From positions 38,189-102,188 of the forward strand of contig QQVE01000028.1 of assembly GCA_003389325.1 (NCBI GenBank): a stretch of DNA of 64,000 nt, read 5' to 3'. Origin of the DNA: Planctomycetota bacterium (GTDB lineage Bacteria; Planctomycetota; Planctomycetia; Pirellulales; PALSA-1355). The position numbers and the translations under genes are program-made. The notes beneath the pieces are model-generated. The model did not search any database, was not told the origin of the DNA, and saw only the letters and a program-made list of their open reading frames with translations. Of the stretch, positions 33-33,556 are shown in pieces; within the stretch, counting starts at the first letter, position 1, and each line of letters begins with the position of its first letter.

Positions 33-1724
33 ATGGCTGCACGTAAGGCGGGCGTGGGTGCAAGGGGATGGACGTTCGTTGTGATCAGCGTGGTCGTGGC
101 AGGTGGCTGTGCCGGACCCTCCACCGAACCCATTGGTGAACGCGACAAGGAAGCAACCGCTTCCCGCCAAAAAGCGTCCGCCGAGCCAGGTCCCCCAGAG
201 CAGTCGGTCGCCAGCGGCAAAGAACTGTACGCGCAACACTGTGCCGCGTGCCATGGTGAGGACGGCAATGGTCAGGGGCTGGCAGCCCAATTCTTGTTTC
301 CCAAGCCGCGAGACTTTCAAGCCGGCCGCTTTCGACTCGTAAGCACGTCCAACGGTGTGCCCACGTTGGACGATGTAGTAGCGGTTCTGCGCCGCGGCAT
401 GCCCGGCTCCTCCATGCCGCCTTGGAGTCATCTCGGCAACGCATCCATCCGGCGGTTGGCCGAGCATGTATTCGTGTTGCGGAGCGAGGGCGCGAAGAAG
501 GCTCTGGCGGCCCAACTCGAAGAAACCGGCGATGAACTGCCACCCGACGAGATCGACGAGATCATCGCGAACTTGACGACCCCGGGTGCCATCGTCCAGG
601 CGCCTGAGGATGCTCGGCCGACACCCGACTCAGTGGCACGTGGAAAGGAGCTCTACGTCAGCAAAGCCTGTGTGCAGTGTCATGGGCCGACGGGCAAAGG
701 TGACGGCCAGCAACAGATGGTGGACTCCGAAGGGCTGCCCACCAGGCCCCGCGACTTGACGCGAGGAATCTTTAAGGGCAGCGCGGACCTGGCTTCGGTG
801 TGGAGACGGATTCGCACCGGAATGCCCGGTACGCCGATGCCGTCGAGCGAGACGCTTTCGGATGGGGAGGTCACTGATCTTACCAACTATGTGTTGTCGC
901 TTTCCGACGAGGCAGCTCGCGAAGCTACCGTGTTGTCGCGAGAGCACATTCGGGCTCGGCGAGTGAGCGAGCTACCTGCCACCATCGATGACACCGCATG
1001 GAAGGAGGTTCCCGCCGTCGAGCTTCGCATGGTTCCATTGTGGTGGCGTGACGATGCCGAACCGGATTTGACTATTCAAGCCGCCCACGATGGGAAGTCC
1101 ATTTGCTTTCGCCTTTCTTGGGCGGATGCGACTGCGAACGAGGACGCCGCCCGCAGTGAGGATTTTGAAGATGCTGTCGCCGTGGAACTTTTCCGCGGCG
1201 CGAGCGAGCCATTCCTTGGAATGGGTGCGCCGGGCGCTGTCGTCGATATGTGGTTCTGGGATGCCGATCGACAGTCGGCACCGGGCATTGAGGACATTAA
1301 TCCGAATATCATCGTCGACGTAGACCCATTCACGACTGGGCCTGTGGCCAGCGCCGAGTATCAACGCGGCGGTACCAGGACCGAGGCGCAACCCTCCATC
1401 TCGCTGACCGCCGCCGCGGCAGGAAACCCCATCGTCCCCGGCAAGGACGTGCCAGCAGCGAGTTCCCTGGAGACCGCCGGGCCCGGCTCCGCGACGTTCC
1501 GGCCACCGACCAGCCAACTGGTTTCCGCTAACGGGCGTTGGAAGGACGGGCGCTGGATCGTGGTGATGAGTCGGCCGCTAGGTGTGGACAATCCTTCCGA
1601 GGGTGTTTCGTTGGTGCCCGGGGAAGAGGCGTCGCTAGCCGTCGCGGTTTGGGACGGGGCTGTCAATGACCGCGACGGCAAGAAACTCGTGACGATTTGG
1701 CAGGACTTGGAGTTGGAGCGATGA
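33..1724 (+). CDS. nxrC: NXR-type gamma subunit: diheme cytochrome c fused to heme b (ethylbenzene dehydrogenase gamma-like) domain
   Basis: Likely electron-transfer subunit of the molybdoenzyme encoded next, passing electrons from the beta-subunit iron-sulfur chain to periplasmic carriers. The N-terminus has a hydrophobic export segment ending in AGGC, a possible lipobox. Two class I cytochrome c domains follow: CAACH near residue 70 with the later Met ligand in MPGSSMPPW, and CVQCH near residue 213 with MPGTPMPSS. The last ~240 residues resemble the heme b fold of EbdC/DdhC/SerC-type gamma subunits, with a candidate Met (FLGMG) and Lys (DGKKL) heme pair. A GGAGAGG ribosome site lies five bases before the ATG. 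It is the first gene visible in the operon; more genes may lie upstream. As I recall, gamma subunits joined to c-type hemes occur in some nitrite oxidisers. The gamma role is inferred from domain and position. Confidence 0.82.
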   Translation: MAARKAGVGARGWTFVVISVVVAGGCAGPSTEPIGERDKEATASRQKASAEPGPPEQSVASGKELYAQHCAACHGEDGNGQGLAAQFLFPKPRDFQAGRFRLVSTSNGVPTLDDVVAVLRRGMPGSSMPPWSHLGNASIRRLAEHVFVLRSEGAKKALAAQLEETGDELPPDEIDEIIANLTTPGAIVQAPEDARPTPDSVARGKELYVSKACVQCHGPTGKGDGQQQMVDSEGLPTRPRDLTRGIFKGSADLASVWRRIRTGMPGTPMPSSETLSDGEVTDLTNYVLSLSDEAAREATVLSREHIRARRVSELPATIDDTAWKEVPAVELRMVPLWWRDDAEPDLTIQAAHDGKSICFRLSWADATANEDAARSEDFEDAVAVELFRGASEPFLGMGAPGAVVDMWFWDADRQSAPGIEDINPNIIVDVDPFTTGPVASAEYQRGGTRTEAQPSISLTAAAAGNPIVPGKDVPAASSLETAGPGSATFRPPTSQLVSANGRWKDGRWIVVMSRPLGVDNPSEGVSLVPGEEASLAVAVWDGAVNDRDGKKLVTIWQDLELER

Positions 1725-1774
1725 GCAGCCACTGCCTCGGTACCTAGGAAATCACGCCGACAAGGAGCCGCAAA

Positions 1775-4700
1775 GTGGAAGTTTCGCGAAGACGCTTTCT
1801 GGAATCATGCCTCTCCGCAGGCGGCGCCGCGCTGTTGGCTCGAGGTCCGCAAGCGTGGGCCTTTACGCCCTTGACCGTCGAAAATCCGTTGGGCGCCTAT
1901 CCGAATCGCGGGTGGGAGAAGGTCTATTTGGATCAATATGCCTACGACGACTCGTTCACTTGGATCTGCGCTCCCAACGACACGCACATGTGTCGTTTGC
2001 GGGCATTCGTGCGCAACGGCGTGATGCTCCGCAGCGAGCAGAATTACGACCACGACCGCTGTGGCGACCTCTACGGCAACACGGCCACCAAGGCCTGGAA
2101 CCCCCGCGGCTGTCCGAAAGGCTTCACCATGCAGCGGCGCATCTACGGCCCATATCGGCTTAAGGGTCCCGTGTTGCGCAAGGGCTGGAAGCAATGGGCC
2201 GACGATGGGTTTCCGTCGCTCTCCGACCAGCCCGAATTGCGGTCGAAGTACAAATTCGACGACCGCGGGAACGACAGCTACGTGAGGCTCAGTTGGGATG
2301 AAATCTTTCCGTACGTGGCCGGCGGTCTGGAAGCGGTCGCTCGCACCTATAGTGGTGCTGAAGGCGCTGCTCGGCTGACAAGCGACGGCTACGAACAATT
2401 GATGATCGATCAGGTGGAAGGCGCCGGCACGCGGGTCATCAAGATCGGCTCGAATCTGCCAATCCACGGCATCATCGGCAAGTTCGGCATCTATCGCCTG
2501 GCAAACTTGCTGGGCCTGTTAGACCATCACGTCCGCGATGTTCCGGCAGAGGAAGCCCGCGGGGCGCGCGACTGGAACGAATACACCTGGCGTGGCGATC
2601 AGGCTCCCGGCCATCCGTATGTGCATGGATTGCAAACGTCCGACATGGATTTCAACGACATGCGGTTCTCGAAGCTCGTGATCCAGATCGGCAAGAACCT
2701 GATTGAAAACAAGATGCCGGAATCGCACTGGCTCAACGAGGTCATGGAGCGCGGCGGAAAGCTCGTCGACATCGCGCCGGAATATAACTGCCCCGGCACG
2801 AAGAGCGACTACTGGATCGGTGTGCGGCCGGGGCTTTCCGACACGGCAGTACTGCTGGGCGTGACCAAGATCCTCATCGACGAAGGATGGTACGATCCGA
2901 AGTTCTGCCGCCGGCACACCGATTTTCCCCTCCTGGTGCGGACCGATACGCTGAGGCGGCTGCGGCCGGAGGACGTGCAGGGTGACTATCGGCCGAAAGA
3001 CATCTCCGCCGGTCCTTCCTATAGGATCCAAGGACTGACGCCGGAGCAGCGCGAGCGAATCGGCGATTTTTGCGTCTGGGATGCTGACAACGACGGCGTT
3101 GCCTTTGTCAGCCGCGACGACGTCGGCGACCATGCGCTCGCCTCCGCCGCGCTCGAAGGGGTATTCCAGGTCAAGCTCGCCGACGGCAGCACGGTCGAAG
3201 CCATGCCAATCCTGGAAATGTACAAACGTCATCTAGTCGACTACGACCCAGCGACAGTCGAAGAGATTTCCGGCGCGCCTGCGGCCCTGGTCCGCCGCTT
3301 GGCGGAAGACATCTGGAAGACCACCGTAGCCGGCGGCCCAGTCGCCGTTCACATCGGCGAAGGCATCAATCACTACTTCCACGCCACACTCCATAACCGA
3401 GCCAGCTACCTGCCGATGATGCTCACCGGCAACATCGGTAAACATGGCGCGGGTGTTTTCACCTGGGCGGGCAACTACAAAGGTGCGCTGATGCAGTCGT
3501 CCTCCTGGAGTGGACCGGGAGTCGGTGCGTACACGCACGAGGACCCATTTGATCCGGTACTCGACGAGAACGCCAAGATCACGCACGAGAATCTACGCCA
3601 TTTAAGCGACGGCGAAGATCCTTCCTACTGGGCGTGTGGCGAACGGACGCAGACGGTCAAACTGCCCAAGGGCGGTGAGCGCACGTTTACAGGCCAGACG
3701 CACATGCCAACGCCCACCAAGGTCATTTGGTACAACAACGCCAATTTCCTCAATCAGGCGAAGTGGATCTACAACATCATCGTCAACGTTCTTCCCAAGG
3801 TCGACATGATCGTCGACCAGCAGATCGAGTGGACCGGCAGCGCCGAATACGCCGACGTGGTCCTGCCGGTGAATTCCTGGGTCGAGCAACAGGACTACGA
3901 GTGCGGAGCGTCCTGCTCCAATCCGTTCTTGCAGGTTTGGAAGGGCGGCATCAAGCCAGTCCACGATTCGATCGACGATGCGGCGGTCTTCGCCGGCACG
4001 GCCCGGGCGTTGGCCGAGAAGACGGGGGATGCCCGTTTCGCTGATTACTTCAAGTTCGTTACGGACAAGAAGGCGAAGGTCTACCTTCAGCGCGTCTTCG
4101 ACGGTTCCACGACGACGCGCGGCACAGATGGGCCCTACAACGTCGATAAGCTGCTGGCCGGCGAGTATGGCGGTGAGCCTGGAGCGGCACTGATGCTCTT
4201 TCGGTCGTATCCACGCGTCGCGTTCTGGGAGCAAGTCCAGGACTCGATTCCATTCTATACCGACAGCGGTCGACTGGCGAGCTACTGTGACCTGCCGGAA
4301 GCGATCGAGTTCGGCGAGAATCTGGTCGTGCACCGTGAGGCCGTGGAGGCGACGCCTTACCTGCCGAATGTGATCGTTTCCACGAGCGAGTTCGTTCGCC
4401 CCGCCGACTTCGGCATTCCGCATGATACGATCGATCCCGACTTGCGGCAGGTTCGAAACGTGAAGATGGGGTGGGCCGAAGTTAAGGAGACGGTCAATCC
4501 GCTCTGGGAACAAGGCTACCGGTTCTTCTGCTCGACGCCCAAGAGCCGGCATTCGACGCACTCGTCCTGGTCGACAGTCGATTGGCATTGGATCTGGAGC
4601 GACAACTTCGGCGACCCGCACCGCAAGGATAAGCGCGCGCCAGGCGTCGCCGATCGGCAGATTCAACTCAATCCCGAGGCCGCGGCCGCCATGGGACTGC

Positions 4701-5245
4701 ACGAAGGCGACTACGTCTATGTCGACGCCAACGAGCTGGATCGGCCCTACGTCGGCTGGAAAGACGACCAAGGACCCCGCCACAAGGCGTTTCGCTGCAT
4801 GGTTCGGGTCAAGATCAACCCCGGACTGCCGTACAACTTCTCGATCATGAAGCACACGGGTTGGATTGCAACCGAGAGGTCCGTCAAAGCCCACGAATCA
4901 CGGCCCGACGGCCGAGCGCTTGCCGCCGAAACGGGCTATCAGGCCAGCTATCGCTATGGCTCGCACCAGAGCATCACTCGCAACTGGATGATGCCCATGC
5001 ACCAGACCGACACTCTGTTTCACAAGAAGACCGGTGCGATGGGATTCGTTTTTGGGGCCGACGTGGACAACCATGCCATCAATACCGTGCCGAAGGAGAC
5101 ATTGGTGCGCATTACGAAGGCCGAGGACGGAGGTTTGGGAGGCAAGGGCGTCTGGAAGCCTGCCACAACCGGCTACGGTCCGACGGGCAAAACCAACCAG
5201 AACGAGCTGTACCTGAGCGGTGCCCTGGTTCGCATCGAGGAGTGA
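1775..5245 (+). CDS. nxrA: NXR-type molybdopterin alpha subunit (periplasmic, Tat-exported)
   Basis: Catalytic subunit of a type II DMSO-reductase-family enzyme, expected to interconvert nitrite and nitrate at a Mo-bis-MGD centre. At 1156 residues it matches NxrA of Nitrospira, Nitrospina and anammox bacteria and is much longer than PcrA, SerA, DdhA or EbdA (roughly 900-980). The N-terminus is a clear Tat signal (SRRRFLES then AGGAALLARG), so the enzyme is periplasmic. The proximal cluster site reads C65-x3-D69-x3-C73 and then C113 in GCPKG: Asp stands where NarG has its second ligand Cys. D275 in WRGDQAPGHP is the likely Mo-ligating Asp by eye alignment with NarG D222. It lies 50 bases after nxrC and 4 bases before the next start. 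A related periplasmic nitrate reductase is the main alternative. Confidence 0.88.
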   Translation: MEVSRRRFLESCLSAGGAALLARGPQAWAFTPLTVENPLGAYPNRGWEKVYLDQYAYDDSFTWICAPNDTHMCRLRAFVRNGVMLRSEQNYDHDRCGDLYGNTATKAWNPRGCPKGFTMQRRIYGPYRLKGPVLRKGWKQWADDGFPSLSDQPELRSKYKFDDRGNDSYVRLSWDEIFPYVAGGLEAVARTYSGAEGAARLTSDGYEQLMIDQVEGAGTRVIKIGSNLPIHGIIGKFGIYRLANLLGLLDHHVRDVPAEEARGARDWNEYTWRGDQAPGHPYVHGLQTSDMDFNDMRFSKLVIQIGKNLIENKMPESHWLNEVMERGGKLVDIAPEYNCPGTKSDYWIGVRPGLSDTAVLLGVTKILIDEGWYDPKFCRRHTDFPLLVRTDTLRRLRPEDVQGDYRPKDISAGPSYRIQGLTPEQRERIGDFCVWDADNDGVAFVSRDDVGDHALASAALEGVFQVKLADGSTVEAMPILEMYKRHLVDYDPATVEEISGAPAALVRRLAEDIWKTTVAGGPVAVHIGEGINHYFHATLHNRASYLPMMLTGNIGKHGAGVFTWAGNYKGALMQSSSWSGPGVGAYTHEDPFDPVLDENAKITHENLRHLSDGEDPSYWACGERTQTVKLPKGGERTFTGQTHMPTPTKVIWYNNANFLNQAKWIYNIIVNVLPKVDMIVDQQIEWTGSAEYADVVLPVNSWVEQQDYECGASCSNPFLQVWKGGIKPVHDSIDDAAVFAGTARALAEKTGDARFADYFKFVTDKKAKVYLQRVFDGSTTTRGTDGPYNVDKLLAGEYGGEPGAALMLFRSYPRVAFWEQVQDSIPFYTDSGRLASYCDLPEAIEFGENLVVHREAVEATPYLPNVIVSTSEFVRPADFGIPHDTIDPDLRQVRNVKMGWAEVKETVNPLWEQGYRFFCSTPKSRHSTHSSWSTVDWHWIWSDNFGDPHRKDKRAPGVADRQIQLNPEAAAAMGLHEGDYVYVDANELDRPYVGWKDDQGPRHKAFRCMVRVKINPGLPYNFSIMKHTGWIATERSVKAHESRPDGRALAAETGYQASYRYGSHQSITRNWMMPMHQTDTLFHKKTGAMGFVFGADVDNHAINTVPKETLVRITKAEDGGLGGKGVWKPATTGYGPTGKTNQNELYLSGALVRIEE

Positions 5246-5249
5246 AGCC

Positions 5250-5624
5250 GTGACCGATTCATCCAGCCAGTACGTGCCAAAAGTTCACCCGGCGACTCGA
5301 CCTGTCGAGCCCGAGGATCCGATGAACCTGTTCGCCGTCGAGGTTCCCGGTGATCCTGAATTGATGCTCCGTCTGTTGGTCGAAGAGTACGCACGCATGG
5401 GTTGGGGGCTAGACGAGCTGCTGCCCTTGTTTCGCGATCCATTCTACGTGGCCGCCCATGGATTGTGGCTGCACTATGGCGAGGAGGACTTGCGTCGTCG
5501 GTTGACAGACCTCTTAGGTCGCGTGGCCGTCGTTCGAGTGAAAACCACATTCTGTAGCCCGCCGCCAGAACAGTTGGTGCAGATTCGCACCTCTGGAGCA
5601 ACGAAAGGAAACAATTATGGCTGA
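5250..5624 (+). CDS. Small unknown protein encoded between NXR alpha and beta
   Basis: A 124-residue protein with no signal peptide or membrane segment. I chose the GTG at 5250, four bases after the nxrA stop, because the in-frame ATG upstream lies inside nxrA. The 3' end overlaps the nxrB ATG by eight bases, so translation of the beta subunit is probably coupled to it. The central part (MNLFAVEVPGDPELMLRLLV and a GLWLHYGEEDLRRRL helix) looks like a compact helical domain. I recall similar small proteins beside planctomycete redox clusters but cannot name a family. Its position suggests a role in assembly or stoichiometry of the complex; that is inference. Confidence 0.72.
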   Translation: MTDSSSQYVPKVHPATRPVEPEDPMNLFAVEVPGDPELMLRLLVEEYARMGWGLDELLPLFRDPFYVAAHGLWLHYGEEDLRRRLTDLLGRVAVVRVKTTFCSPPPEQLVQIRTSGATKGNNYG

Positions 5625-6912
5625 GGTGTACAACTGGCAGCTGGGGCGCGAGATGAGCTATCCGCACGAGGCTCATTTTCCCGAATGGCAGTTTGCTTTC
5701 GTGTTCAACCCCAATCGCTGCATTGGGTGCCAGACCTGCACGATGGCCTGCAAGAGCACTTGGACGTTCTCCAAAGGCCAGGAGTTGATCTGGTGGAACA
5801 ACGTCGAGTCGAAGCCGTACGGAGGATATCCGCAGAACTGGGATAGCAAACTGCTCAACATGCTTGAGGAGGCGAATCCCGGCCAGCAGGTCTGGAACAT
5901 TGCGGAGAAGGATTCGGATACCAAGCCGTATGGCACCTTCCAGGGGATGACGATCTTCGAAGCCGCCGAGAAGCGTCCAAGTCCAGACGGTCCGCAGGCG
6001 GCACTGGGCTATCTGCCGACGGACGACGAGTGGCGGCATCCCAATATCCACGAAGACACCGCGACCGGCGGACCCTTTAAACAGGATGGCCAATACGGCG
6101 CGTCGGCCCAACTGCCTGAACACAAGGTGTGGTTCTTTCATCTGGCGCGGATCTGCAACCATTGCACGTATCCCGGCTGTCTGGCCTCCTGCCCGCGCCA
6201 GGCGATCTACAAACGGCCCGAAGATGGCATCGTGCTGATCGACCAAAGTCGCTGTCGCGGGTATCGCAAGTGCGTGGAAGGTTGCCCGTACAAGAAAGCC
6301 ATGTATCGGCCCACCACCCGAACCAGCGAAAAGTGCATTGGTTGCTTTCCGCGCATCGAGGGAAAGGACCGTACGCTAAGTCCGACCGGCGCCCCGGCCG
6401 AGACCCGCTGCATGGCGGCCTGCGTGGGTAAGATTCGACTACAAGGGCTGATCAAGAAAAACCCGGACGGCACTTGGGCCGACGATCCCAAGAACCCGCT
6501 CCACTACTTGATCCGTCAACGGCAAGTGGCGTTGCCGCTATACCCACAATTCGGCACGGAGCCCAACGGTTTTTACATCCCGCCGCGCTGGGTGCCACGC
6601 GACTACCTGATTCAGATGTTCGGCCCGGGCGTCGATCACGCGATCGAGCAGTATAGCTGTCCCGATCGCGAGCTGCTGGCCGTACTGCAGTTGTTCCGGG
6701 CCAATCAGCAGATCGTCTTCCGCTATGAGATTGAAGAAGGCCCCAAGGTCTGCGAGATGGAAGTGACCATGCCCTCGGGCGAAACGAAAGTTCAGGAACT
6801 CTACAACGACACGGTGATCGGCTTCAACAAGCTCGGCGAGGAAGTGGTGCGTGTCACGATCGAGGAGCCAACGTTCGAGCGGCCGGCTGAAGCACACGTG
6901 AACTCTATATGA
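5617..6912 (+). CDS. nxrB: NXR-type iron-sulfur beta subunit
   Basis: Electron-transfer subunit carrying four cubane-type clusters between the Mo subunit and the gamma heme. Cysteine groups visible in order: C35-x2-C38-x2-C41-x3-C45; CNHCTYPGC-x3-CP; CRGYRKCVEGCP; and CIGC...RCMAAC. In the third group a Tyr occupies the position where NarH has Trp instead of Cys, so this is the [3Fe-4S] site. It has no signal peptide, as expected for a partner that crosses the membrane bound to the Tat-signal alpha subunit. The 431-residue length matches NxrB of Nitrospira and anammox bacteria rather than the ~330-residue SerB/PcrB/DdhB. The ATG is preceded by an AAAGGAAA ribosome site and overlaps the preceding small gene. 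Confidence 0.9.
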   Translation: MAEVYNWQLGREMSYPHEAHFPEWQFAFVFNPNRCIGCQTCTMACKSTWTFSKGQELIWWNNVESKPYGGYPQNWDSKLLNMLEEANPGQQVWNIAEKDSDTKPYGTFQGMTIFEAAEKRPSPDGPQAALGYLPTDDEWRHPNIHEDTATGGPFKQDGQYGASAQLPEHKVWFFHLARICNHCTYPGCLASCPRQAIYKRPEDGIVLIDQSRCRGYRKCVEGCPYKKAMYRPTTRTSEKCIGCFPRIEGKDRTLSPTGAPAETRCMAACVGKIRLQGLIKKNPDGTWADDPKNPLHYLIRQRQVALPLYPQFGTEPNGFYIPPRWVPRDYLIQMFGPGVDHAIEQYSCPDRELLAVLQLFRANQQIVFRYEIEEGPKVCEMEVTMPSGETKVQELYNDTVIGFNKLGEEVVRVTIEEPTFERPAEAHVNSI

Positions 6913-6945
6913 ACAAATGAACTTCAGGCCGATGGATGGCAAGAA

Positions 6946-7761
6946 ATGAATATGCAGTACGCCGTTGCGACCAGATCAGCTGGCGAGGCTGAGTTCGATC
7001 CCGTGCTGTGTTCCGCGCGGCGGACCTTGTATCGCTTTGTGGCATGGACATTGGCCGATCCTCGTGGCGGCTCATGGGATCAGCTCGCGCTTGACTCGAC
7101 CGCGCAGTTGGTAAGCGCCGCTGCGGCGGTCGTTCGTGGCGAGCCAAGCGCCAGCGCCCACTCACTGGGCCGCGGGGAACTCCCGCTTGTCGATCTCGAC
7201 CCCGCCCCTGTGTTCGCGCGGTTGCCCGCCACCACAGAGGCTGCCAATGCCGCGTACGAGCAGACATTTGGATTGCTGGTTTCGAGCAACTGTCCGCCCT
7301 ACGAAACCGAGTACATCAACAGCAAATTCACCTTTCAACGCTCGCATGGGCTGGCCGACGTCGCGGGTTTCTATCGGGCGTTCGGGCTCGAACCTTCCGC
7401 CACGCATCCCGAGCGTCAAGATCACCTCGTGCTGGAGCTGGAATTCATGGCCTTGCTGTTGGGCCTCGAACAAGCGGCCATGGAAAGTGATCACCCCAGT
7501 CGAACGGAGCATCGAGACGTTTGTGCTGCCGCCGGGCGCAAATTCCTTGAAGAACACCTGCTGTGGTGGGTGCCAACGTTTGCCCGCCTGTTGAGCAGGC
7601 AGGATCCCGATGGATTCTACGAGGCCGTATCGCGATTGCTCGCGGCGCTGGTGGCCGCGGATCGGTCGATGGCCGGGCTACCGACGCTATCGGCACAGGT
7701 GGCGCCCACCATGGTCGAGCGACCCGAAGAATGCGCAGGATGCCTCCTGAATCCAGATTGA
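6946..7761 (+). CDS. TorD/NarJ-family molybdoenzyme assembly chaperone
   Basis: Predicted cytoplasmic chaperone that holds the apo alpha subunit until cofactor insertion and proofreads its Tat signal. It is 271 residues and largely helical, with the family's central acidic/aromatic region (YEQTFGLLVSSNCPPYETEY) and the later LEFMALLLGLEQ helix. It begins 33 bases after nxrB and lies in the same direction, which matches the usual alpha-beta-chaperone order of type II enzymes. A second in-frame ATG two codons later (6952) is an alternative start. The C-terminal ECAGCLL motif is unusual and could bind a metal, but this is speculative. Family assignment is by overall pattern, not by a catalytic motif. 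Confidence 0.8.
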   Translation: MNMQYAVATRSAGEAEFDPVLCSARRTLYRFVAWTLADPRGGSWDQLALDSTAQLVSAAAAVVRGEPSASAHSLGRGELPLVDLDPAPVFARLPATTEAANAAYEQTFGLLVSSNCPPYETEYINSKFTFQRSHGLADVAGFYRAFGLEPSATHPERQDHLVLELEFMALLLGLEQAAMESDHPSRTEHRDVCAAAGRKFLEEHLLWWVPTFARLLSRQDPDGFYEAVSRLLAALVAADRSMAGLPTLSAQVAPTMVERPEECAGCLLNPD

Positions 7762-7784
7762 ATCGAACAATGGGGAAGAATGCC

Positions 7785-8567
7785 ATGAGAACGATCGGAA
7801 AATGCGTCTCGCTTTGCGCTGCCAGCTGCTGCGTTGTTGTGCCGGCGATTGCAGTGGCGGCCGATGGCTGGGCCACACTTAAGGGGCGCTTCGTCTACGA
7901 CGGTTCGCCGCCTGCTGTGAAATTCTTGTCTACTTCCGGCAAGGACTCGACAGTTTGCGACAAGCATGAAATCCCGGACGAGTCACTGATTGTGGATTCG
8001 GCGTCGAAGGGAATCGCGAACATCGTTGTCTATCCTCGCAAGGTGAGTCGCGTGCATGAGTCGCAAAACAAGCCAGCCACCAACGAAGTTGAGTTCGACC
8101 AGAAGGATTGCGTGTTCCTGTCGCACGTGCTGCCCTTGCGTGTCGATCAGACCCTTGTGATCAAGAACAGCGATCCGATCGGTCACAATACAAACATCAG
8201 CCCGCTGGCCGATACTTCCATCAACCCGCTGCTTCCGGCGGGCGGCCAACTCAAGCACAAGTTCAATCGCGAACAATCCTTGCCCGTACCAGTTACGTGC
8301 AACATCCACCCCTGGATGAAGGCATATGTCCTGGCGCGCAATGACTCATATGTTGCCGTATCCGCCAAGGACGGCAGCTTCGAGACCACCAACCTTCCGG
8401 CCGGCGAGGAGATCGAGATTCAGGTGTGGCACGAAAAGGGCGCAGGCGCTGGAGGCACTCTTGAAGCCAAGAAGGATTGGAAGAGGGGGCGGTTCAAACT
8501 TAAGCTTAAAGATGGCGAAACCAAGGATGTGGGCGAAATCTCCGTCAGCAGCAGGGCATTCAAGTAG
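7785..8567 (+). CDS. Periplasmic cupredoxin-like (plastocyanin-type) protein
   Basis: Exported 260-residue protein with an N-terminal signal peptide (hydrophobic run ending at AIAVAADG). The middle contains the type 1 copper pattern of cupredoxins: a His in IGHNTN, then CNIHPWM giving Cys, His and Met ligands. The remainder looks like a beta-sandwich extension common in planctomycete methylamine-utilisation/plastocyanin-like proteins. I chose the ATG at 7785 because GGGGAAG precedes it at good spacing; the ATG at 7770 is weaker. Its place in the NXR operon suggests it could be the soluble electron acceptor of the enzyme, but nothing in the sequence proves partnership. The upstream open frame overlapping the chaperone gene is not real coding. 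Confidence 0.8.
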   Translation: MRTIGKCVSLCAASCCVVVPAIAVAADGWATLKGRFVYDGSPPAVKFLSTSGKDSTVCDKHEIPDESLIVDSASKGIANIVVYPRKVSRVHESQNKPATNEVEFDQKDCVFLSHVLPLRVDQTLVIKNSDPIGHNTNISPLADTSINPLLPAGGQLKHKFNREQSLPVPVTCNIHPWMKAYVLARNDSYVAVSAKDGSFETTNLPAGEEIEIQVWHEKGAGAGGTLEAKKDWKRGRFKLKLKDGETKDVGEISVSSRAFK

Positions 8568-8570
8568 CGA

Positions 8571-9062
8571 ATGGGCGAGCGAAGTGTACGAACGATGGCA
8601 TCTCCAGCCGGTAATCTGGTCGCCGTGTGTGTCTCCTCCGGGAGCATTCCCAAGCGCTCGGTCGATGGGGCACGAGTCACGACGAACGGCTTAGAAGGTG
8701 ACGAGCATGCGCATGACAAACATAATCGTCCCGACCGCGCGGTAAGCTTATTCGACTGGGAGATCCTGACGCAGTTGCAAGGCGAAGGCTTTCACCTCTA
8801 TCCCGGCGCGATCGGGGAGAACCTGACTGTCTCTGGGCTCCACGTGCAACACCTACCCCCGGGCACGCTGCTGGAGATCGGCAACGTGTTGCTGCGGCTC
8901 GAGCAGCCGCGCAAACCGTGCTATGTCTTGGACTCTATCGACCCCTCCCTCAAAGATGTCATTGTGGGCCGTTGCGGCTACATGGCCTCCGTCGTCCGCG
9001 AAGGATTGGTCAACAGGTCGATGCGGGTCCAAGTGTCGCAGCCAAACTCACGGGCGAGCTAG
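8571..9062 (+). CDS. MOSC-domain protein
   Basis: Small 163-residue single-domain MOSC protein, the family related to the C-terminal domain of molybdenum cofactor sulfurase and to YiiM. Seen: the G-L-E-G-D-EHAHD segment, the RAVSLFDWEI segment, the GAIGENLTV turn and the conserved Cys in RKPCYVLD, where the family places its Mo- or sulfur-handling residue. It begins three bases after the cupredoxin stop, so it is probably the last gene of the NXR operon. An ATG at 8595 (MASPAG) is an alternative start. A role in Mo-cofactor handling or protection for the upstream molybdoenzyme is inferred from family plus context. Confidence 0.82.
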   Translation: MGERSVRTMASPAGNLVAVCVSSGSIPKRSVDGARVTTNGLEGDEHAHDKHNRPDRAVSLFDWEILTQLQGEGFHLYPGAIGENLTVSGLHVQHLPPGTLLEIGNVLLRLEQPRKPCYVLDSIDPSLKDVIVGRCGYMASVVREGLVNRSMRVQVSQPNSRAS

Positions 9063-11910: not shown

Positions 11911-13296
11911 CTACTGGCGAAATTCGCCGGCGTCGAGATTGTGCTTTTTGAGAAGCTTGTGGAGCCCTTGTCGGGACATCCCTGCTTGCTTCGCCGAACC
12001 GGCCACGTTGCCTGCGTTCTCGCTCAGCAGGGCCACAAGATAGTCACGCTCGGCCCCCTCTATAGCCTCCGCGCGAGATCCGTACGCTGGATAACCTGAA
12101 GTCGAGGCATTTGTGTTCAGAGCACAGCGTTGAAGGGCCGCCGGGAGGTCACTCGGAACGATCACGTCGGTACAGGCCATCGCCAGGCCATGTTCGACGG
12201 CATTGCGAAGTTCGCGAATATTCCCGGGCCAAGGATAGCGTTTGAACAAGTCAATGGTTTCGGAGGCGAACCCGCCAACACGGGAATCTGCCGTTTGAAG
12301 CTGCTCGAGAAAATGGTTCGCCAGCAGCACAACGTCATCTCCGCGCCGCCGCAGCGGCGCCAAGTCTATGTGGATTACCGCCAGCCGATAGAATAGGTCT
12401 CGGCGGAACCGCCCGGAATTGACTTCCAGTTCAAGGTCACGATTGGTGGCGCAGATGAAGCGCGTGTCGATTTGCTCCGGAACCCTCATGCCGAGTGGAA
12501 CAAAGGTTTGTTCCTGTATCACTCGAAGCAACTTTGCCTGCAGCGGACCCGGCAATTCACCGATTTCGTCAATGAAGGCTGTGCCGCCATGGGCCTCGCT
12601 CAGCAGTCCAACCTGGTCCTTCACTGCGCCGGTGAACGAACCCTTGGCGTGGCCGAACAGCAGTGATTCAAAGAGTGTCTCTGGGATAGCGGTGCAGTCG
12701 ATTACCTGAAACGCTCCTTTCGCCCTAGAGCTGCGGTTATGAATGGCCCGCGCGACGACTTCCTTGCCAGTGCCGCTCTCGCCTGTGATCAGAACGTTGG
12801 CGTCGTTGCCGGCCACGCGCTCGATGATCTCAAATAACTCCCGCATCGGCGGACTATCTCCGACCAACTCCGGAAACCGGCCCACTTCGGCCGAGTCTTT
12901 CGGTAATCTCGGGGGCCGACGGGCGCGGTGGGCCAGAGCGCGTCGCACGCTGGAGAGCAAATCGTCGTACTTGACGGGCTTAAGCAAATAATCAGCAATC
13001 CCAAGTCGCACGCTTTCGATCGCTGAGGGGAGCGATGGGGCTCCAGTCACAACGATCAATGGGGTATCCGGCCATCGTTGTCGTCCGTGATGCAGGAGTT
13101 CCAGCTTCAGATTCCCTGGCATGTTAAGATCGGAAAGAACCAAGTCGATTGGCTGACTTGACAGCGCCTCGAGTGCCGCGTGTCCATCCGCGGCGCAGGT
13201 GCATTCGTAGCCAGCCTTCCGCAGTAATTGGGCGGTGGTTCTCAAGAAACGCGGCTCGTCATCGGCAATGAGGATGCGCGGCACCTTCTCAGCCAT
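11911..13296 (-). CDS. NtrC-family sigma-54-dependent response regulator
   Basis: A 461-residue transcription activator. Receiver domain (1-120) with phospho-acceptor Asp in [13 protein letters not shown]+ domain (~140-375) with GESGTGKE Walker A, the sigma-54 contact loop GSFTGA, and FIDEIGEL Walker B. C-terminal Fis-type helix-turn-helix near [20 protein letters not shown]. The start overlaps the last eight bases of the kinase gene, so the pair is translationally coupled. All motifs needed for phospho-dependent activation of sigma-54 RNA polymerase are present. Likely targets are the sigma-54 promoters found within 6 kb, which share a 12-base upstream motif. The signal sensed is unknown. 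Confidence 0.93.
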
Positions 13297-14566
13297 TCGC
13301 TACCCCCTGTGACGAACCAGTACGTTGAGGAAACACGATTGAAAAGACGCTCCCCCGATCGGGCTCGCTAGTAACGTCGATGCGCCCGCCCATGGCTTCG
13401 ACGAGATTGCGCGACACTGAAAGGCCCAGACCCATACCCATTTGCGCGTCGCCGTCCTTTGTGCTAAAGAAGGGATCGAAAATGCGGTGCTGGATGTCGG
13501 GGCGAATGCCGGGCCCTTGATCCTTGATGTGCAGCAAGACTTCCGTCGCATCCTGTTGAAGCGTGACGATAACTTCGTCACCGGGCGACGATACCTGAAT
13601 TGCATTTTTGACTACATTGTAGAGGATCTGCTTGACTTCTCCTTCAACAAGGCACACACGAATCGACTCATCAACCATGTCAAAGCGCAAGTGAACCTGG
13701 TGTTTGGCGGCGGTGCTTTCCAGCATGTCGATTACTTCGCGAACCGTCTGTGCGATGACGAACTCGGACGGCTGTTGCGGGGCACGTTTGTATAGCTGGT
13801 ACATCTGGTGCGTAATTCCGCTAATCCGCTCGATTTCCTTGTCGATCTGCCCGAGCAATTCGAAATGTTCGTGGTCCGGAGTAAGCGACGTCCTGATCAG
13901 CTCGAAGGCGTTGCGCATTCCCGCCAGTGGGTTATTGATTTCGTGTGCAACGCCGGCGGCGAGCTCGCCCAAGGCAGCCAGCTTCTCCATCTGCTGCTGA
14001 CGTCGTTCGAGTTGCCTGAGTTTCTCCGTTCGCTCCTGGACAAGCTGTTCGAGGTGCTCGGCATAAAGGCGGAGCTGTTCGCGAAGCGCTTGTCGCTCGG
14101 TGATGTCGCGCACACTCGTCCGAAAGCCCAAATGTCGGCGACCGCTGTCATACATTGGTTGCCATGAAAGCGACATCCAACGTGACTCTCCGGTGCGGGA
14201 CAGACTGCGGAAGTCCAAAAACTCTCCCGACTTTTGCTCTCGCGCCGATGCAAGCGCTTCAGCGACGATGTTTCGATCTACCGGTTCGACGATCGGCATT
14301 GGATAGTCGGGCATCGACAGGCAGTCGTCCACTGTGTAACCGGTGATGCGCTCGACAGCCGGGTTGACCCACACGAGCCGCGCATCTGGCGCGTGCCAGC
14401 TCTCCCAGTCCGGCGTGTAATCGGCCACCGCGCGAAAACACTCGAGATCATTGGCCGCGATTTGGGAGTCGACAGACCTGCCTGCCTTGTTCTGAAGTCG
14501 TTTGTTGCGCACTTGAGGGGACGCCACAGGGGCCACAAAAAAAAATGCGAATAGGGTCTGGTCCAC
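13289..14566 (-). CDS. PAS-domain sensor histidine kinase (NtrB-like)
   Basis: A 425-residue soluble kinase without membrane segments, so it senses a cytoplasmic signal. A PAS/PAC unit spans about residues 40-160 ([14 protein letters not shown] and [13 protein letters not shown]), followed by a short coiled coil. The H-box is [12 protein letters not shown] with the phosphorylated His. The ATPase domain shows N box NVVKNAIQ, G1 DQGPGIRP and G2 [10 protein letters not shown]. It overlaps the response regulator by eight bases and lies 22 bases after the second Rnk gene, giving an Rnk-kinase-regulator operon. The exact start is uncertain because the first ~35 residues look unstructured. No heme or FAD ligand can be identified in the PAS domain. 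Confidence 0.9.
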
Positions 14567-23389: not shown

Positions 23390-23398
23390 CCAAAAAAG

Positions 23399-23472
23399 AG
23401 CCAGCGGTGGGAGTCGAACCCACAACCCCCGCATTACGAATGCGGTGCTCTGCCGATTGAAGCTACGCTGGC
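23399..23472 (-). tRNA. tRNA-Thr (anticodon CGU)
   Basis: Complete cloverleaf of 74 bases on the minus strand. Acceptor stem GCCAGCG pairs with CGCTGGC; anticodon stem CCGCA/TGCGG encloses loop TTCGTAA with anticodon CGT; T arm GTGGGTTCGACTCCCAC. CCA is not encoded. Its 3' end faces the integrase gene, making it the probable integration site of the region to the left. Confidence 0.93.
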
Positions 23473-25704: not shown

Positions 25705-27243
25705 TTAACTGGTTTCGCTGGCGAACTGGAAGCCGTGGTAGGCCTCGTTGCCGTGTTCGCCGAAGTCGAGACCTTCGGCTTCCTCTTCCGGCGTGACACG
25801 CAATCCGATCGTGTACTTGATGCCGAAGAACGTGATCGCACCGGTGACGATGCACCAGCCGAAAACGGCAGCTACGCCGATCGCTTGATCGATCAACTGC
25901 GTGGCGTCGCCACCATAGAACAGGCCCGGGTACGGTGAGCCCTCGCCGGTTCCCGTCGAGAACAGCCCGACCGCCAGCGTTCCCCAGGCACCGCAGGTGC
26001 CGTGCACCGAGATGGCACCGACCGGGTCGTCGATCTTGAGCGTGTGCTCGATGAACACCACCGAAAGCACCACGACCACGCCGCCGATGGCACCGATCGC
26101 CAGGGCGCCGGGAACGGTGACCCACGCACAGGGCGCGGTGATCGACACCAAGCCGGCGAGAGCACCGTTGAGGGCCATCGTGGCTTCCCACTTCCCGAAC
26201 ATGGCCTTGGCCGTGAAGATCGCGGCAATCGCGCCGGCGGCAGCCGCCGAGTTCGTGGTGACCGTAATCAACGCAATGGCGTTCGCATCAGCGGCCATCG
26301 TGCTACCGGGGTTAAACCCGAACCAGCCGAGCCACAGGATGAACACCCCCAGGGCCACGAGCATGATGTTGTGACCCGGAATCGCCTTGGGCTTGCCCGA
26401 CGAGTCGAACTTGCCGGTACGTGCACCGAGGGCAAACGAGCCGACAAGCGCCAGCCAGGCTCCCACGCTGTGCACCACGGTCGAGCCGGCGAAATCCCAG
26501 AAGCCCAGGTCGGCCAGCCAGCCACCGCCCCAGATCCAATGCCCCGAGATCGGGTAGATAACCGCGGTAATGATCAGGCTATAGACCATGTACGAGACGA
26601 ACTTGGTCCGCTCGGCCATGGCACCCGAGACGATCGTCGCCGCCGTGGCGGCAAACACCAACTGGAAGAAAAACTTGCTGTACAGCGGGACCAGCGCCCA
26701 GTTGATCGGGTCGAAGTTCGACGTCGGCGTGCCTTCCACGTCCACCATCTCCTCATGCAACATGAAGCCGCTGGTGCCCATGAACTCATTGCCGATGCTG
26801 AACATCAGCCCGAAGCCGACCAGCCAGAACATGATGCTGCCGAAGCTGAAGTCGAGCAGGTTTTTCATGCAGATGTTGGCCACGTTCTTGGCCCGCGTCA
26901 GTCCCGCCTCGACCAGGCAGAAACCGGCCTGCATGAACATCACGAGGAAGGCGGCCACCATGACCCAAATCGTGTCCAGGGCCACACTGATCGAACCGGT
27001 GTCCTCATTCAGCCCCATCGTAGGGCCGCTGATCTCTTCTTCCTCGGCCTCGGCAGCCTCCTCTTCGGCCGGCTCTTCGCTCGCATCTTCGGCGGGCTCC
27101 TCTTCCACGACCGCCTCGGTCTCTTCGACCGTGGTCTCTTCGGCGGGCTCTTCATCCTGGGCCCGAGCGGTGGTGGTCACCGCGACCAGGGCCGCGACCA
27201 TCAACAGCATGGCCCACAGACGGGGACTCAATAAAGTACTCAT
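25705..27243 (-). CDS. amtB: AmtB-type ammonium transporter with acidic N-terminal extension
   Basis: A 512-residue Amt/Rh family channel for ammonium uptake across the inner membrane. After a signal peptide (ending near TTARAQDE) there is an extracytoplasmic stretch of about 45 residues made mostly of Glu, Ala and Pro. About eleven membrane helices follow. Family motifs: DTIWVMVAAFLVMFMQAGF, DFAGSTVVHSVGAWLALVG with the first pore His, and DDPVGAISVHGTCGAWGTLAVG with the second. GGAGGT precedes the ATG. A consensus sigma-54 promoter lies 320 bases upstream, fitting control by nitrogen limitation. No glnK gene is adjacent. Confidence 0.95.
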   Translation of the reverse strand: MSTLLSPRLWAMLLMVAALVAVTTTARAQDEEPAEETTVEETEAVVEEEPAEDASEEPAEEEAAEAEEEEISGPTMGLNEDTGSISVALDTIWVMVAAFLVMFMQAGFCLVEAGLTRAKNVANICMKNLLDFSFGSIMFWLVGFGLMFSIGNEFMGTSGFMLHEEMVDVEGTPTSNFDPINWALVPLYSKFFFQLVFAATAATIVSGAMAERTKFVSYMVYSLIITAVIYPISGHWIWGGGWLADLGFWDFAGSTVVHSVGAWLALVGSFALGARTGKFDSSGKPKAIPGHNIMLVALGVFILWLGWFGFNPGSTMAADANAIALITVTTNSAAAAGAIAAIFTAKAMFGKWEATMALNGALAGLVSITAPCAWVTVPGALAIGAIGGVVVVLSVVFIEHTLKIDDPVGAISVHGTCGAWGTLAVGLFSTGTGEGSPYPGLFYGGDATQLIDQAIGVAAVFGWCIVTGAITFFGIKYTIGLRVTPEEEAEGLDFGEHGNEAYHGFQFASETS

Positions 27244-27563
27244 ACGACCTCCAACACAGTTTGACAGAAGGACTTGAATCTCGCGGGAACCCACAGGCGC
27301 CCTAGGGACATCGCTCAACGTTGACTCGCCGTAACTAACAGGGAGGCTCGCGCTCGCAACCCACACGCGCCCGAGACCGTTTTTGCCGCACCCGGTGTGC
27401 GGCGACTCGGGAGAGCCGAAGCTCCCACGCCTCCGCCGTTGCTGACGCGAGTCGTGGGGTACATGCCCGCGCTCATTCGCCCGCGAATGCCGCGAGTTGA
27501 GAGACAAGGACCGCGCACCGCCTCGACCCACCAGCCACCTGAACGGAGTCGGGCTCCCCTCGA

Positions 27564-27579
27564 AGCAAGCACCGTGCCA
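27564..27579 (-). promoter_or_regulatory. Consensus sigma-54 promoter of amtB
   Basis: On the minus strand TGGCACG-GTGC-TTGCT matches the consensus at every defined base. The predicted start near 27550 leaves a leader of about 305 bases before amtB. No other gene lies between. Confidence 0.82.
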
Positions 27580-27874
27580 AGGGGCACATTTCGCCTCCAA
27601 GCGATGCGCGTAACCTACTTATGACAATAGGTTTACAGATCGGATTGCGTCGCGAGCAAGCCGTGGCTCCAGCGACGCGATGCCAGCAGGTTAGGCAACC
27701 AAGGATGAAAAACGCAGCACTCGCGATTTGCGCCCAGACCCAGCGCACCAGAACCCGAAACGCGGGAAAGCCCAGAGTGGGAATCCCTGCCGCAAAGTGT
27801 CACAAGAGCCATCCGCGGCCAGGCGTCAGAAGGCCGACCGAGCAATCGACCGCTCAGCTCGATCAACGGCGCGC

Positions 27875-27967
27875 AAAAAAAAGGGGCCTCTGATGCGCCA
27901 AAAACGTTTGGCGATGCCGGATGGTTAGGGGCAAGGTAACTATCCCGCTACACTCATCAGAGGCCCC
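27875..27967 (-). ncRNA. Possible structured RNA or terminator in the amtB upstream gap
   Basis: A 13-base perfect inverted repeat (GGGGCCTCTGATG with its complement at 27955-27967) encloses 59 bases that contain an inner hairpin (CGCCAAA-AACG-TTTGGCG). Read on the minus strand the structure ends in eight Ts, like a small RNA with its own terminator. No gene precedes it on that strand, so it is not simply the end of a coding transcript. The rest of the gap 27580-28323 shows no supported gene. Confidence 0.45.
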
Positions 27968-28323
27968 ACGGGCCGCATAGTAAGGGTGCCTGTCCGGCAC
28001 CGCCTTCCTTTAATAGCAAGCCGAATGCCAACAGGGGGTGGCCCCGGCCAAGTCATGACAGCATTTTTTTATGTCCAATGAAAACAACGACTTAAAAACG
28101 ATTCCAGATCTTGGAACATCACTTTGCATTGCAAACCACCCTGAGGCGTTCTGCGCCACTTGCAGCATATCGATACAGCGCGCTCGCGGTCGTGCGCGCC
28201 AAATTCCAGAATCCAGACACGCCGTCCCCCCCGACGGGATAGCGTGGTAAATGGCGTCTCATAAGGATTTAATGCAATGGGAATCCCATTGCCGCCATCG
28301 CCAAGACGCGCATACTTCGCACC

Positions 28324-29271
28324 ATGACCGACCAGGTCCTCATTTTGAGCAATCCCGGTGCCGGTTCGCGGTTCCGTACCGATGTGCTCGCCGAATTGAC
28401 CGCCGCGATCCAGGCCGCGGGGCTCGCGTGCCAGGTGATCGATCGCATGGATGCCCTGGCCGAAACCGCGGCCGGATTCCACGCACAGGGGAAACTGCGG
28501 GCCGTCGTTGCGGCCGGCGGCGATGGCACCGTGGCCGCGGCCGCCAATCACGTGGCTCCGGAAGTACCGATCACCGTCTACCCGCTAGGAACCGCCAACC
28601 TCTTGGCCGGCTACTTTCGCATCGGGCGCGATCCCCAGGCGATGGCCCGCATGCTGCGCGACAACTGCCGGGCACGGTTCGATGCCGGCCGGGCAGGCGG
28701 GCGCCGGTTCCTGCTGATGGCCAGTTGCGGGTTCGACGCCGACGTCGTGCGCCGCCTGCACGAGAAGCGTTTGGGAAAGCACATCACCTATTGGACCTGG
28801 GCCCGGCCTCTGCTCGAATCGATACGCCGTTATCGCTATCCCGAGTTGCGTGTGTCGTGCTTCGCGAGCGACGGAACCCTACTGGACGAGGAGCGCCGCG
28901 TGCGCTGGGCCTTTGCCGTCAATTTTCCCGTTTACGCCGGCGGATTGGGCGTGGCACCCGAAGCCGACGCCGCGGATGGCGTGCTCGACGTGTGCACGTT
29001 TCGCCAGGGCTCGCCCTGGCATGCGCTGCGCTACGCTGCGAGCGTGGCGTTGGGCTTCCATCGCCGCTTCGCCGATTTCCACTGCATGCCGGCGGCGCGC
29101 GTCCGGATCGAGTCCGACGAACCGATCCCCTATCAACTCGACGGCGACTATGGTGGAGTGCTCCCGCTCGAGATCGAATGTATCCCCGGATGCCTGACGC
29201 TCGTCGTTCCGCGGCAACGCGCTCTCGAACTGGGACTCCAGTTGATCGAACCCACCCACGCAGGAAGCTAG
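28324..29271 (+). CDS. Diacylglycerol kinase-like lipid kinase (YegS/LCB5 family)
   Basis: A 315-residue cytoplasmic kinase of the DAGK catalytic family, which phosphorylates a lipid hydroxyl using ATP. Motifs: N-terminal LILSNPGAGS, the nucleotide-binding VVAAGGDGTVAAAANH, YPLGTANLLAGYF, and a C-terminal YQLDGDYGG that carries the second catalytic acidic segment. Substrate (diacylglycerol or another lipid) cannot be read. It is the first gene of a plus-strand group and is followed after three bases by kdsA. Confidence 0.88.
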   Translation: MTDQVLILSNPGAGSRFRTDVLAELTAAIQAAGLACQVIDRMDALAETAAGFHAQGKLRAVVAAGGDGTVAAAANHVAPEVPITVYPLGTANLLAGYFRIGRDPQAMARMLRDNCRARFDAGRAGGRRFLLMASCGFDADVVRRLHEKRLGKHITYWTWARPLLESIRRYRYPELRVSCFASDGTLLDEERRVRWAFAVNFPVYAGGLGVAPEADAADGVLDVCTFRQGSPWHALRYAASVALGFHRRFADFHCMPAARVRIESDEPIPYQLDGDYGGVLPLEIECIPGCLTLVVPRQRALELGLQLIEPTHAGS

Positions 29272-29274
29272 AAC

Positions 29275-30105
29275 GTGCCAAACAATCCCGCCACGGTTGG
29301 ACCCTATCTGTGCGGCCGCGAACAACGCCTGCTGATCATCGCCGGCCCCTGCGTGATCCAGGACGAGGCCCTGGCCTTGGAGATCGCCGAGACGCTCAAG
29401 GACGTGGCCCACCATCTCTCGGTGTCGCTGGTCTTCAAAGCGTCGTTCGACAAGGCCAATCGCACCAGCCTCAGCTCGTACCGCGGGCCGGGACTCGAGA
29501 AAGGGCTCGAAGTGCTGGCCGCCGTCAAGCGTGCCACCGGATTGCCCGTCACGACCGATATCCACGAGCCGCGGCAGGCCGCGCCGGTGGGCGAGGTGTG
29601 CGATTTGCTCCAGATTCCGGCCTTTTTGGCCCGGCAGACCGATCTGCTGGTGGCCGCCGCCCACACGGGCCGGCCGGTGCACGTGAAAAAGGGCCAATTC
29701 ATGGCTCCCTGGGATATGCGGCACGTTTTGGGCAAACTCGAAGGGGCCGGCTGCCGTAATATCTTATTGTGCGAGCGCGGTACGTTTTTCGGCTACGGCC
29801 GCCTGGTCAACGACATGCGCTCGATCGTGCAAATGCAGGAACTCGGCGCCCCGGTCGTGTTCGACGCGACCCACAGCGTGCAGGAACCCAGCGCCGCGGG
29901 CGGCACCACCGGCGGCAACCGCGCCATGGTCGAACCGCTGGCCCGGGCGGCTACGGCATTGGGTGCCGACGGACTGTTCTTCGAGACCCATCCCGACCCC
30001 GACAGCTCGCCGAGTGACGGGCCCAACATGATCCCGCTGAGCGAATTCGGCCACTTGATATCGCGGCTCGTCCGAATTCGCCAAACCGTGGAGAGGCTGG
30101 ATTGA
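29275..30105 (+). CDS. kdsA: 3-deoxy-8-phosphooctulonate synthase
   Basis: Condenses phosphoenolpyruvate with arabinose 5-phosphate to make KDO-8-phosphate for lipopolysaccharide. The 276-residue TIM barrel shows family segments [87 protein letters not shown] and DATHSVQEP. Cys in AGPC may be a metal ligand, as in metal-dependent KdsA. It starts with GTG three bases after the lipid kinase stop. Supports an LPS-type outer membrane in this planctomycete. Confidence 0.95.
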
Positions 30106-31847: not shown

Positions 31848-31876
31848 CGCTTTCCCAGGTCCTGGGCTTCATCCGG

Positions 31877-31901
31877 CACGAGGGGGCCGGTCCCCCTTGT
31901 G
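31877..31901 (+). terminator. Hairpin after the transglutaminase-like gene
   Basis: A 10-base stem (CACGAGGGGG with CCCCCTTGTG, one G-U pair) and 5-base loop, 30 bases after the stop; no T-run follows. Confidence 0.4.
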
Positions 31902-32008
31902 GCGGCCCTAACGACTTGGTAGCTTAACGGTTTGCATCGAGCGGGCAGGGGCCCGCCTTGCCCTGGCGTCTAGAATGGACGTGTCAGGAAAGCCCCGATA
32001 GAAGAGCC

Positions 32009-32269
32009 ATGAAAAGCGACATCCATCCCGAATACTTCGTCACCACGGTCAAGTGCGGCTGCGGCAACACCTTCACCACGCGCAGCACGCGCCCCGAGCT
32101 GAAGGTCGACATTTGCAACGTTTGCCATCCGTTCTATACGGGCAAGCTGAAGTTCGTCGACACGGCCGGCCGCATCGAGAAGTTCAAGAACAAGTTCGCC
32201 TCGTCCGGCTATGCCAGCCTGAAGCGCGGCAAGAAGAAGGCCGAAGCCGAGGCCAAGAGCGAATCGTAG
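32009..32269 (+). CDS. rpmE: Ribosomal protein L31
   Basis: An 86-residue 50S subunit protein. [20 protein letters not shown], then [20 protein letters not shown], are classic. It is the zinc-binding (C+) type with CxC and CxxC pairs, so no zinc-starvation paralogue is implied here. The C-terminal tail is Lys/Glu-rich and longer than in E. coli. The start at 32009 matches the family. Followed by prfA and prmC, a common order. Confidence 0.96.
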
Positions 32270-32418: not shown

Positions 32419-33498
<1,080 letters not shown>

Positions 33499-33556
33499 TC
33501 CCTCGTCCCCCCGGGGCATGCCCGGCCGGCGTGCTCTCGCCACGAAAGAAGCTGCC

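Follow-up and report, generated by a model that had tools for sequence, protein, structure and literature searches.

Genes for nitrite oxidoreductase (NXR) serve as markers of nitrite oxidation, and in two oxygen-deficient zones Planctomycetota, Scalindua included, make up the majority of nxrA carriers according to the available part of that study (PMC10359470). What an NXR-type enzyme does in a planctomycete that does not resemble an anammox organism is the question raised by the locus described here. Should its clade turn out to reduce nitrate, counts of nxr would exaggerate nitrite oxidation; should it oxidise nitrite, they would miss a set of organisms with that metabolism. The stretch of DNA analysed, referred to as the window, comprises 64,000 nucleotides (positions 38189 to 102188 of contig QQVE01000028.1, hereafter C23) of a 5.94 Mb genome that is 86.23% complete, 2.87% contaminated and contains one NXR copy.

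Inspection of the open reading frames confirmed the operon that the initial annotation had described at the left end of the window, with an NxrA of 1156 aa bearing a twin arginine and an NxrB of 431 aa, and revealed the gene order nxrC-nxrA-(small gene)-nxrB-torD-(cupredoxin)-MOSC over positions 33 to 9062 (Table 1). The small gene at 5283 to 5624 was absent from the earlier list; its GTG start was picked by comparison with homologues. To the right of the operon lie a sigma-54 regulator and a PAS kinase, followed by Rnk/GreA-, Usp-, CBS-, CsrA-, and MgtC-type proteins. The kinase and regulator pair (11911 to 14566) was found again near NXR genes in other phyla.

Table 1. Features of the window, with positions counted from its first nucleotide, and the evidence for each.
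Feature	Position	Strand	Evidence
NxrC	33..1724	+	Haem b domain of ethylbenzene-dehydrogenase type, fused with two cytochrome c domains (CAACH, CVQCH); Pfam EB_dh 2e-31, Cytochrom_C
NxrA, catalytic Mo subunit, 1156 aa	1775..5245	+	N-terminus MEVSRRRFL, twin arginine; 7b04_B 1482 bits; ligand columns
Small helical protein, 113 aa	5283..5624	+	Follows nxrA; overlaps nxrB by 8 bases
NxrB, Fe-S subunit, 431 aa	5617..6912	+	7b04_A 577 bits
TorD/NarJ-type chaperone	6946..7761	+	PF02613 2.7e-21; homologue in 70/80 NXR loci
Predicted blue-copper protein (cupredoxin), 260 aa	7785..8567	+	Invariant ligands; model and amicyanin 2gb2 match
MOSC-domain protein	8571..9062	+	PF03473 3.3e-14
Sigma-54-dependent response regulator	11911..13296	-	Homologue near NXR in 8/80 loci
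PAS-domain histidine kinase	13289..14566	-	Homologue near NXR in 10/80 loci, also in 2/20 control segments
Integrase (tyrosine recombinase), 340 aa	22269..23291	-	PF00589 9.5e-14; reading frame and start
tRNA-Thr (CGT), presumed insertion site	23398..23472	-	Island on its 3' side, leftward; same tRNA and host genes in G002
Host flank: ammonium transporter, lipid-kinase-like, KdsA-like, TPR, RF1, PrmC, MurA-like (names by eye)	25705..35853		Same order in G002, 45.9-86.6% identity

A comparison with solved enzymes revealed that window NxrA aligns with the NxrA of Kuenenia stuttgartiensis (7b04_B) over residues 1 to 1155 with 1482 bits, while NxrB aligns with 7b04_A over its full length with 577 bits; at the level of sequence, the similarity of both subunits to Kuenenia NXR is far beyond chance. 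The next solved relatives of NxrA were perchlorate reductase alpha (187 bits), ethylbenzene dehydrogenase (135 bits), and NarG (about 100 bits). On these scores an identity as perchlorate reductase or hydrocarbon dehydrogenase, an affiliation that the initial annotation had named as a possible refutation of its reading, was rejected.

In the Kuenenia enzyme, Asp275 is a ligand of Mo, Asn70 lies at the substrate, three Cys and one Asp hold the FS0 cluster, and Met and Lys bind haem b (PMC8387239). Alignment columns place the corresponding residues of window NxrA at D275 (Mo ligand), N68 (substrate site), and C65/D69/C73/C113 (FS0). The FS0 Asp is present in 93 of 100 rows and replaced by Cys in the other seven, among them NOB-type Nitrospinota rows. 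Signs of a canonical NarGHI are missing, as Cys occupies the FS0 position where two NarG-type rows have His and the operon contains no NarI-type gene. In NxrC, the haem b ligands M397 and K551 align with Met155 and Lys305 of 7b04_C (73 bits), and both are kept in all 61 NxrC cluster members with letters at these columns, three further members being gapped. CxxCH motifs vary across the 64 members of this cluster (two in 49, none in 14, and one in 1 short piece). NxrC also matches 6h5l_B, annotated as a 'conserved hypothetical cytochrome protein'. Judged by its twin arginine, of which the first R is kept in 96 and the second in 98 of 100 rows, NxrA carries a predicted Tat signal. Together, the full-length NxrA and NxrB homology, the Mo Asp, the substrate Asn, the FS0 ligands, and the Met/Lys haem b gamma subunit support the earlier placement of these genes in the periplasmic NXR lineage (Nitrospira/Nitrospina/anammox type).

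The small helical protein is a candidate for a missing part of NXR-type enzyme assembly. Homologues accompany NXR genes in 62 of 80 loci, no Pfam family matched at E up to 10, and the structural model built from 53 sequences (pLDDT 86.6) consists of four helices. A fold search against the PDB returned a best match at only E 4.7, which is not significant. Our guess from the model is that the protein could be an assembly factor. The predicted cupredoxin, in the numbering of a 253-aa read from position 7806, has H127, C165, H168, and M171 invariant in 21/21 sequences, and its model (pLDDT 92.1) matches amicyanin 2gb2 at E 5.3e-6. The idea of the cupredoxin as an NXR-specific part was dropped, since few of its 2273 relatives lie near NXR (6/80 loci).

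The composition of C23 suggests how the operon reached this genome. A low-GC block extends over C23:1-61500 (at least 61.5 kb), its three segments having a GC content of 0.578-0.585 versus 0.623-0.673 in 20 other genome segments. Tetranucleotide correlation to the rest of the genome is 0.895-0.916 for the block, 0.917-0.979 for the 20 other segments (the lowest being a 7 kb piece), and 0.958-0.977 for the host side of C23. The initial annotation had described a high-GC flank; this holds to the right of about 23.4-24.4 kb in the window, where GC steps up to about 0.65, but not for the operon itself, which sits in DNA of about 0.58-0.62. The block, possibly a composite of two or more elements, ends about 105 bases past the integrase, at the 3' end of tRNA-Thr. 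In G002, a genome of the same family listed as 100% complete and without an NXR match, the same tRNA is flanked on one side by seven of the host genes seen in the window, in the same order and 45.9-86.6% identical. On its other side a TPR gene follows directly, then GH15-, Tgt-, and SecDF-like genes (named by eye), with no low-GC block. An integrase beside a tRNA gene at a compositional step thus coincides with an empty site in a relative, both marks of a genomic island, and the NXR-type operon was likely acquired on such an island at tRNA-Thr. The same TPR gene seems to come after the tRNA in G045 as well (by eye, over a short stretch). In G003, also of the same family, only 40 bases of the tRNA remain next to the host genes, apparently because a different element has interrupted it, and a whole copy lies on another contig beside an integrase-like ORF. 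Taken together, these genomes make the site look like an insertion hotspot.

Cargo of the island adjacent to the window (C23:18300-38200, locus L003) includes a quinol-type NO reductase (qNor), an Rrf2 regulator, RIC, a SLAC1-type channel, and cytochromes c, along with weaker matches to NnrS (below its cut-off) and to a globin (a weak flavohaemoglobin match). At positions 10997 to 15582 of this locus, a molybdoenzyme of NasC type (scoring below its cut-off) is encoded together with a QmoC-like membrane protein and partners of the Fe-S and Rieske kinds; it may be a further nitrate reductase carried by the block. Further left, in L004 (C23:1-18300), positions 11920-11941 resemble the 3' half of another tRNA and 3113-3736 hold a recombinase-like ORF (by eye).

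An assembly error at the junction of low-GC and high-GC DNA, with the operon belonging to another organism, would also produce a step in GC and tetranucleotide composition at the tRNA. Consistent with such an error, neither the far-end repeat nor the left host flank was located: no repeat of the tRNA end occurs on C23, where the contig ends inside the block, and C12 holds one 81% match; the far end of the island was not found among the own-genome pieces fetched, nor were orthologues of the G002 genes left of the tRNA, for which those pieces gave weak TPR matches only. The step falls, however, at an integrase and a tRNA, as integration gives, the same-family genome G001 carries a closely similar operon (NxrB 93%), and in G003 this tRNA seems to have been interrupted by an insertion of a different kind. 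We therefore find an assembly error very hard to credit. Misbinning, raised earlier as a possible refutation, is likewise unlikely, as C23 carries both the operon and the host genes, and gene order on the host side agrees with that of a same-family relative. The G001 copy (L187, contig C212 of that genome) lies beside Rrf2 and protoglobin genes and is cut by the contig end, with one TAG inside its NxrA match.

To evaluate the host, we searched for hydrazine synthase alpha (PF18582). The own genome gave 0 matches, in agreement with the non-anammox host suggested at the outset, and an anammox host was rejected on this absence, with the caveat that the genome is 86% complete. Among 294 Planctomycetota genomes drawn, 57 match PF18582, most of them outside families f62 and f93, so PF18582 was dropped as a clean anammox marker; some of the 57 have many copies. 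An NXR-type alpha subunit (E up to 1e-150) was found in 69 of the 294 genomes. Of these carriers, 19 belong to f62 and f93, families regarded here as anammox on the strength of hydrazine synthase alpha matches in 17 of these 19 genomes (all but G105 and G292). The other 50, own genome included, fall outside these families, 29 with at least 1299 bits (NXR-proper) and 21 with lower scores, some of them fragments.

A protein search returned 1851 proteins, of which the 120 listed are 78-100% identical, and a genome scan gave 545 relatives, of which the best 80 were kept. Twelve of 97 extracted loci (duplicates, fragments, and far outgroups) were left out, and the main tree has 102 rows, with no named Nitrospira or Nitrotoga row. 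Window NxrA falls in a 26-row clade (support 100) whose named rows are all Planctomycetota, nested in a 72-row clade (99) of many phyla, whereas Kuenenia sits in a separate 18-row clade (85) together with L120, L121, and P0206, Nitrospinota rows of NOB type. A slower tree of 41 rows places it in an 18-row clade (99/96) without Kuenenia, L120, L121, and P0206, the backbone being otherwise unresolved. Both sequence trees thus keep window NxrA apart from the clade that holds Kuenenia and these NOB-type rows, with modest backbone support. Exceptions to the split are L075, labelled Nitrospina and on the window side in both trees, and L130 (MAG ARS89), on that side in the 102-row tree only. MAG ARS89, labelled Nitrospinota, has two NxrA of different clades, the NOB-type L121 and L130, the latter near a bd-like oxidase. 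Genome G019, which we take to be Thermogutta terrifontis, encodes a NarG only 40-42% identical to window NxrA. The MAG behind L075, ERR599109_bin11, is set apart from other Nitrospinia in the accessible text of PMC10839748.

Homologues of the island proteins recur to very different extents in the 80 loci: NxrB in 72, TorD in 70, NxrC in 65, the small protein in 62, Rrf2 in 16, the PAS kinase in 10, the sigma-54 regulator in 8, RIC and the cupredoxin in 6 each, the globin and MOSC in 3 each, qNor in 2, NnrS in 1, and the window integrase in none. Twenty own-genome segments, a weak control from one genome only, contained no homologues except the PAS kinase (2) and MgtC (1). In the planctomycete clade, qNor, RIC, NnrS or globin occurred in 6/22 loci versus 0/20 of these single-genome control segments. 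Neighbouring ORFs from 18 of the 22 loci, up to eight per locus, were scanned against Pfam (101 of 126, 25 being left out by hand). The commonest families were hemerythrin (7) and RIC/ScdA (5); NorB, protoglobin, Rrf2, MobB, and sigma-54 regulators were found twice, as were unrelated families. These counts cover 25 of the 136 families listed, and rarer ones such as NirK may occur. The commonest annotated neighbour in the planctomycete clade is thus an NO-damage-repair protein, and G001 (Rrf2, protoglobin) and G045 (RIC, Rrf2) show NO-response neighbours again.

Two partners of NOB-type loci were looked for in the same way. A bd-like oxidase (PF01654) lies near 11/80 loci and a putative zinc-finger protein, so called by guess as Pfam gives no family, near 10/80; neither was found on C23, in own-genome pieces totalling 1.17 Mb (with some overlap), or among the 22 planctomycete-clade loci. 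Searches for other enzymes gave three strong matches to haem-copper oxidase, no match to RuBisCO, no NrfA, and a best NirK match of 28 bits against a cut-off of 296. Six partial Cytochrom_D1 matches, covering about a quarter of the model and two to three of them over a low cut-off, were not taken as NirS.

Sequence alone cannot settle the direction of catalysis, and the surroundings are circumstantial; the available part of PMC10839748 likewise describes NXR and NAR as hard to distinguish by sequence and phylogeny. By analogy with Kuenenia NXR, which acts in both directions in vitro, nitrate reduction included (PMC8387239), the window enzyme is probably reversible. We favour, with a probability of roughly 55%, the reading that it is mainly a cytochrome-c-linked periplasmic nitrate reductase (nitrate to nitrite) in an apparently non-anammox planctomycete. 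The Tat system would export NxrA together with NxrB, and TorD, perhaps also the small helical protein, would help NxrA to mature. A bc-type complex would deliver electrons to cytochrome c or to the predicted blue-copper protein, and the carrier would feed the c and b haems of NxrC; from there the path would lead through the Fe-S clusters of NxrB and FS0 to Mo, where nitrate would be reduced. For NO derived from nitrite, the island has its qNor, RIC, globin, NnrS-like, and Rrf2 genes, which would deal with it. Nitrate reduction agrees better with the surroundings, given the NO-response neighbours, the missing NOB partners, and the lack of a RuBisCO match, and T. terrifontis, a more distant relative of the same order, grows anaerobically with nitrate by the excerpted account in PMC5673643. 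Several points count against nitrate reduction. No known nitrite reductase was found in this 86%-complete genome, which leaves NO production from nitrite without explanation by a known enzyme, the haem-copper oxidases would also suit aerobic nitrite oxidation, and L075 and L130, labelled Nitrospinota, fall on the window side of the tree. Cupredoxins, moreover, accompany NXR in NOB too, as far as the accessible sections of PMC3578206 go.

A true nitrite oxidoreductase is possible, if on balance unlikely: it would convert nitrite to nitrate in the periplasm, and a haem-copper oxidase would receive the electrons by way of NxrC and then either cytochrome c or the blue-copper protein, in an aerobic, probably mixotrophic organism. 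The shared lineage and ligands, the Kuenenia-type FS0, the fusion of cytochrome c and haem b parts in one subunit, as in the alternative NxrC of Nitrospina, and the haem-copper oxidases agree with it, and Suarez et al. 2023 put forward this function for related MAGs (PMC10732223, available part). The placement of NxrA away from Kuenenia and its NOB-type Nitrospinota clade mates, the failure to find the bd-like oxidase and putative zinc-finger partner on C23 or in the 22 clade loci, the lack of a RuBisCO match, and the NO-response neighbours argue against it. The wider enzyme family of NXR acts on many substrates, and the enzyme could have another natural one (e.g., chlorate), with nitrate and nitrite as side substrates only. 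The NCBIfam chlorate/selenate/ethylbenzene group does match as a subfamily, below cut-off. We consider this improbable given the full-length NXR match, the presence of all tested active-site residues, the 1482 versus 187 bits for perchlorate reductase, and an island cargo that concerns nitrogen oxides. Returning to the nitrate reductase reading, a broader and rather doubtful extension, offered tentatively, is that heterotrophic planctomycetes exchange nitrate/nitrite respiration as a single island integrated at a tRNA, complete with its NXR-type enzyme, an electron carrier, regulators, and protection against NO, that the clade is a separate functional class, and that a single transfer could bring or remove nitrite oxidation. 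The island is one way in which an NXR-type trait could spread.

The initial annotation regarded the locus as possibly undescribed for this group. Genes of the NXR type had, however, already been described from non-anammox members of the phylum: Suarez et al. 2023 reported them in 19 Planctomycetota MAGs from an Oslofjord tunnel and proposed nitrite oxidation, as the available part of their paper states (PMC10732223). Three of these MAGs, OFTM39, OFTM341, and OFTM389, have an NxrA 78-81% identical to that of the window, and the accessible text describes neither a tRNA-integrated island nor the small protein (PMC10732223). Within the partial coverage of a literature search judged by titles and the beginnings of abstracts, we found nothing on NXR with a genomic island, integrase or tRNA, or on such a small protein. 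What is added here is the island at tRNA-Thr, the clade position of NxrA, an NO-repair neighbourhood without the bd-like oxidase, and the small helical protein. The Nitrospina gracilis NXR cluster, in the available portion of its description (PMC3578206), shares a Tat-exported alpha subunit, TorD, an alternative NxrC with c haems and haem b, and cupredoxins, but its bd-like oxidase was not found with the window NXR. In place of the FS0 Asp of window NxrA, the rows L120, L121, and P0206 (NOB-type Nitrospinota) carry a fourth Cys. The NarG of T. terrifontis, from the same order and the wider NXR/NAR lineage, is described with a NarI subunit in the part of the source at hand (PMC5673643). Compared with the NXR of K. 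stuttgartiensis (7b04), the window differs in its two fused cytochrome c domains in gamma, its separate clade, and the absence of a hydrazine synthase alpha match, while sharing full-length NxrA and NxrB, the Mo Asp, the substrate Asn, the 3Cys/1Asp FS0, and the Met/Lys haem b in gamma.
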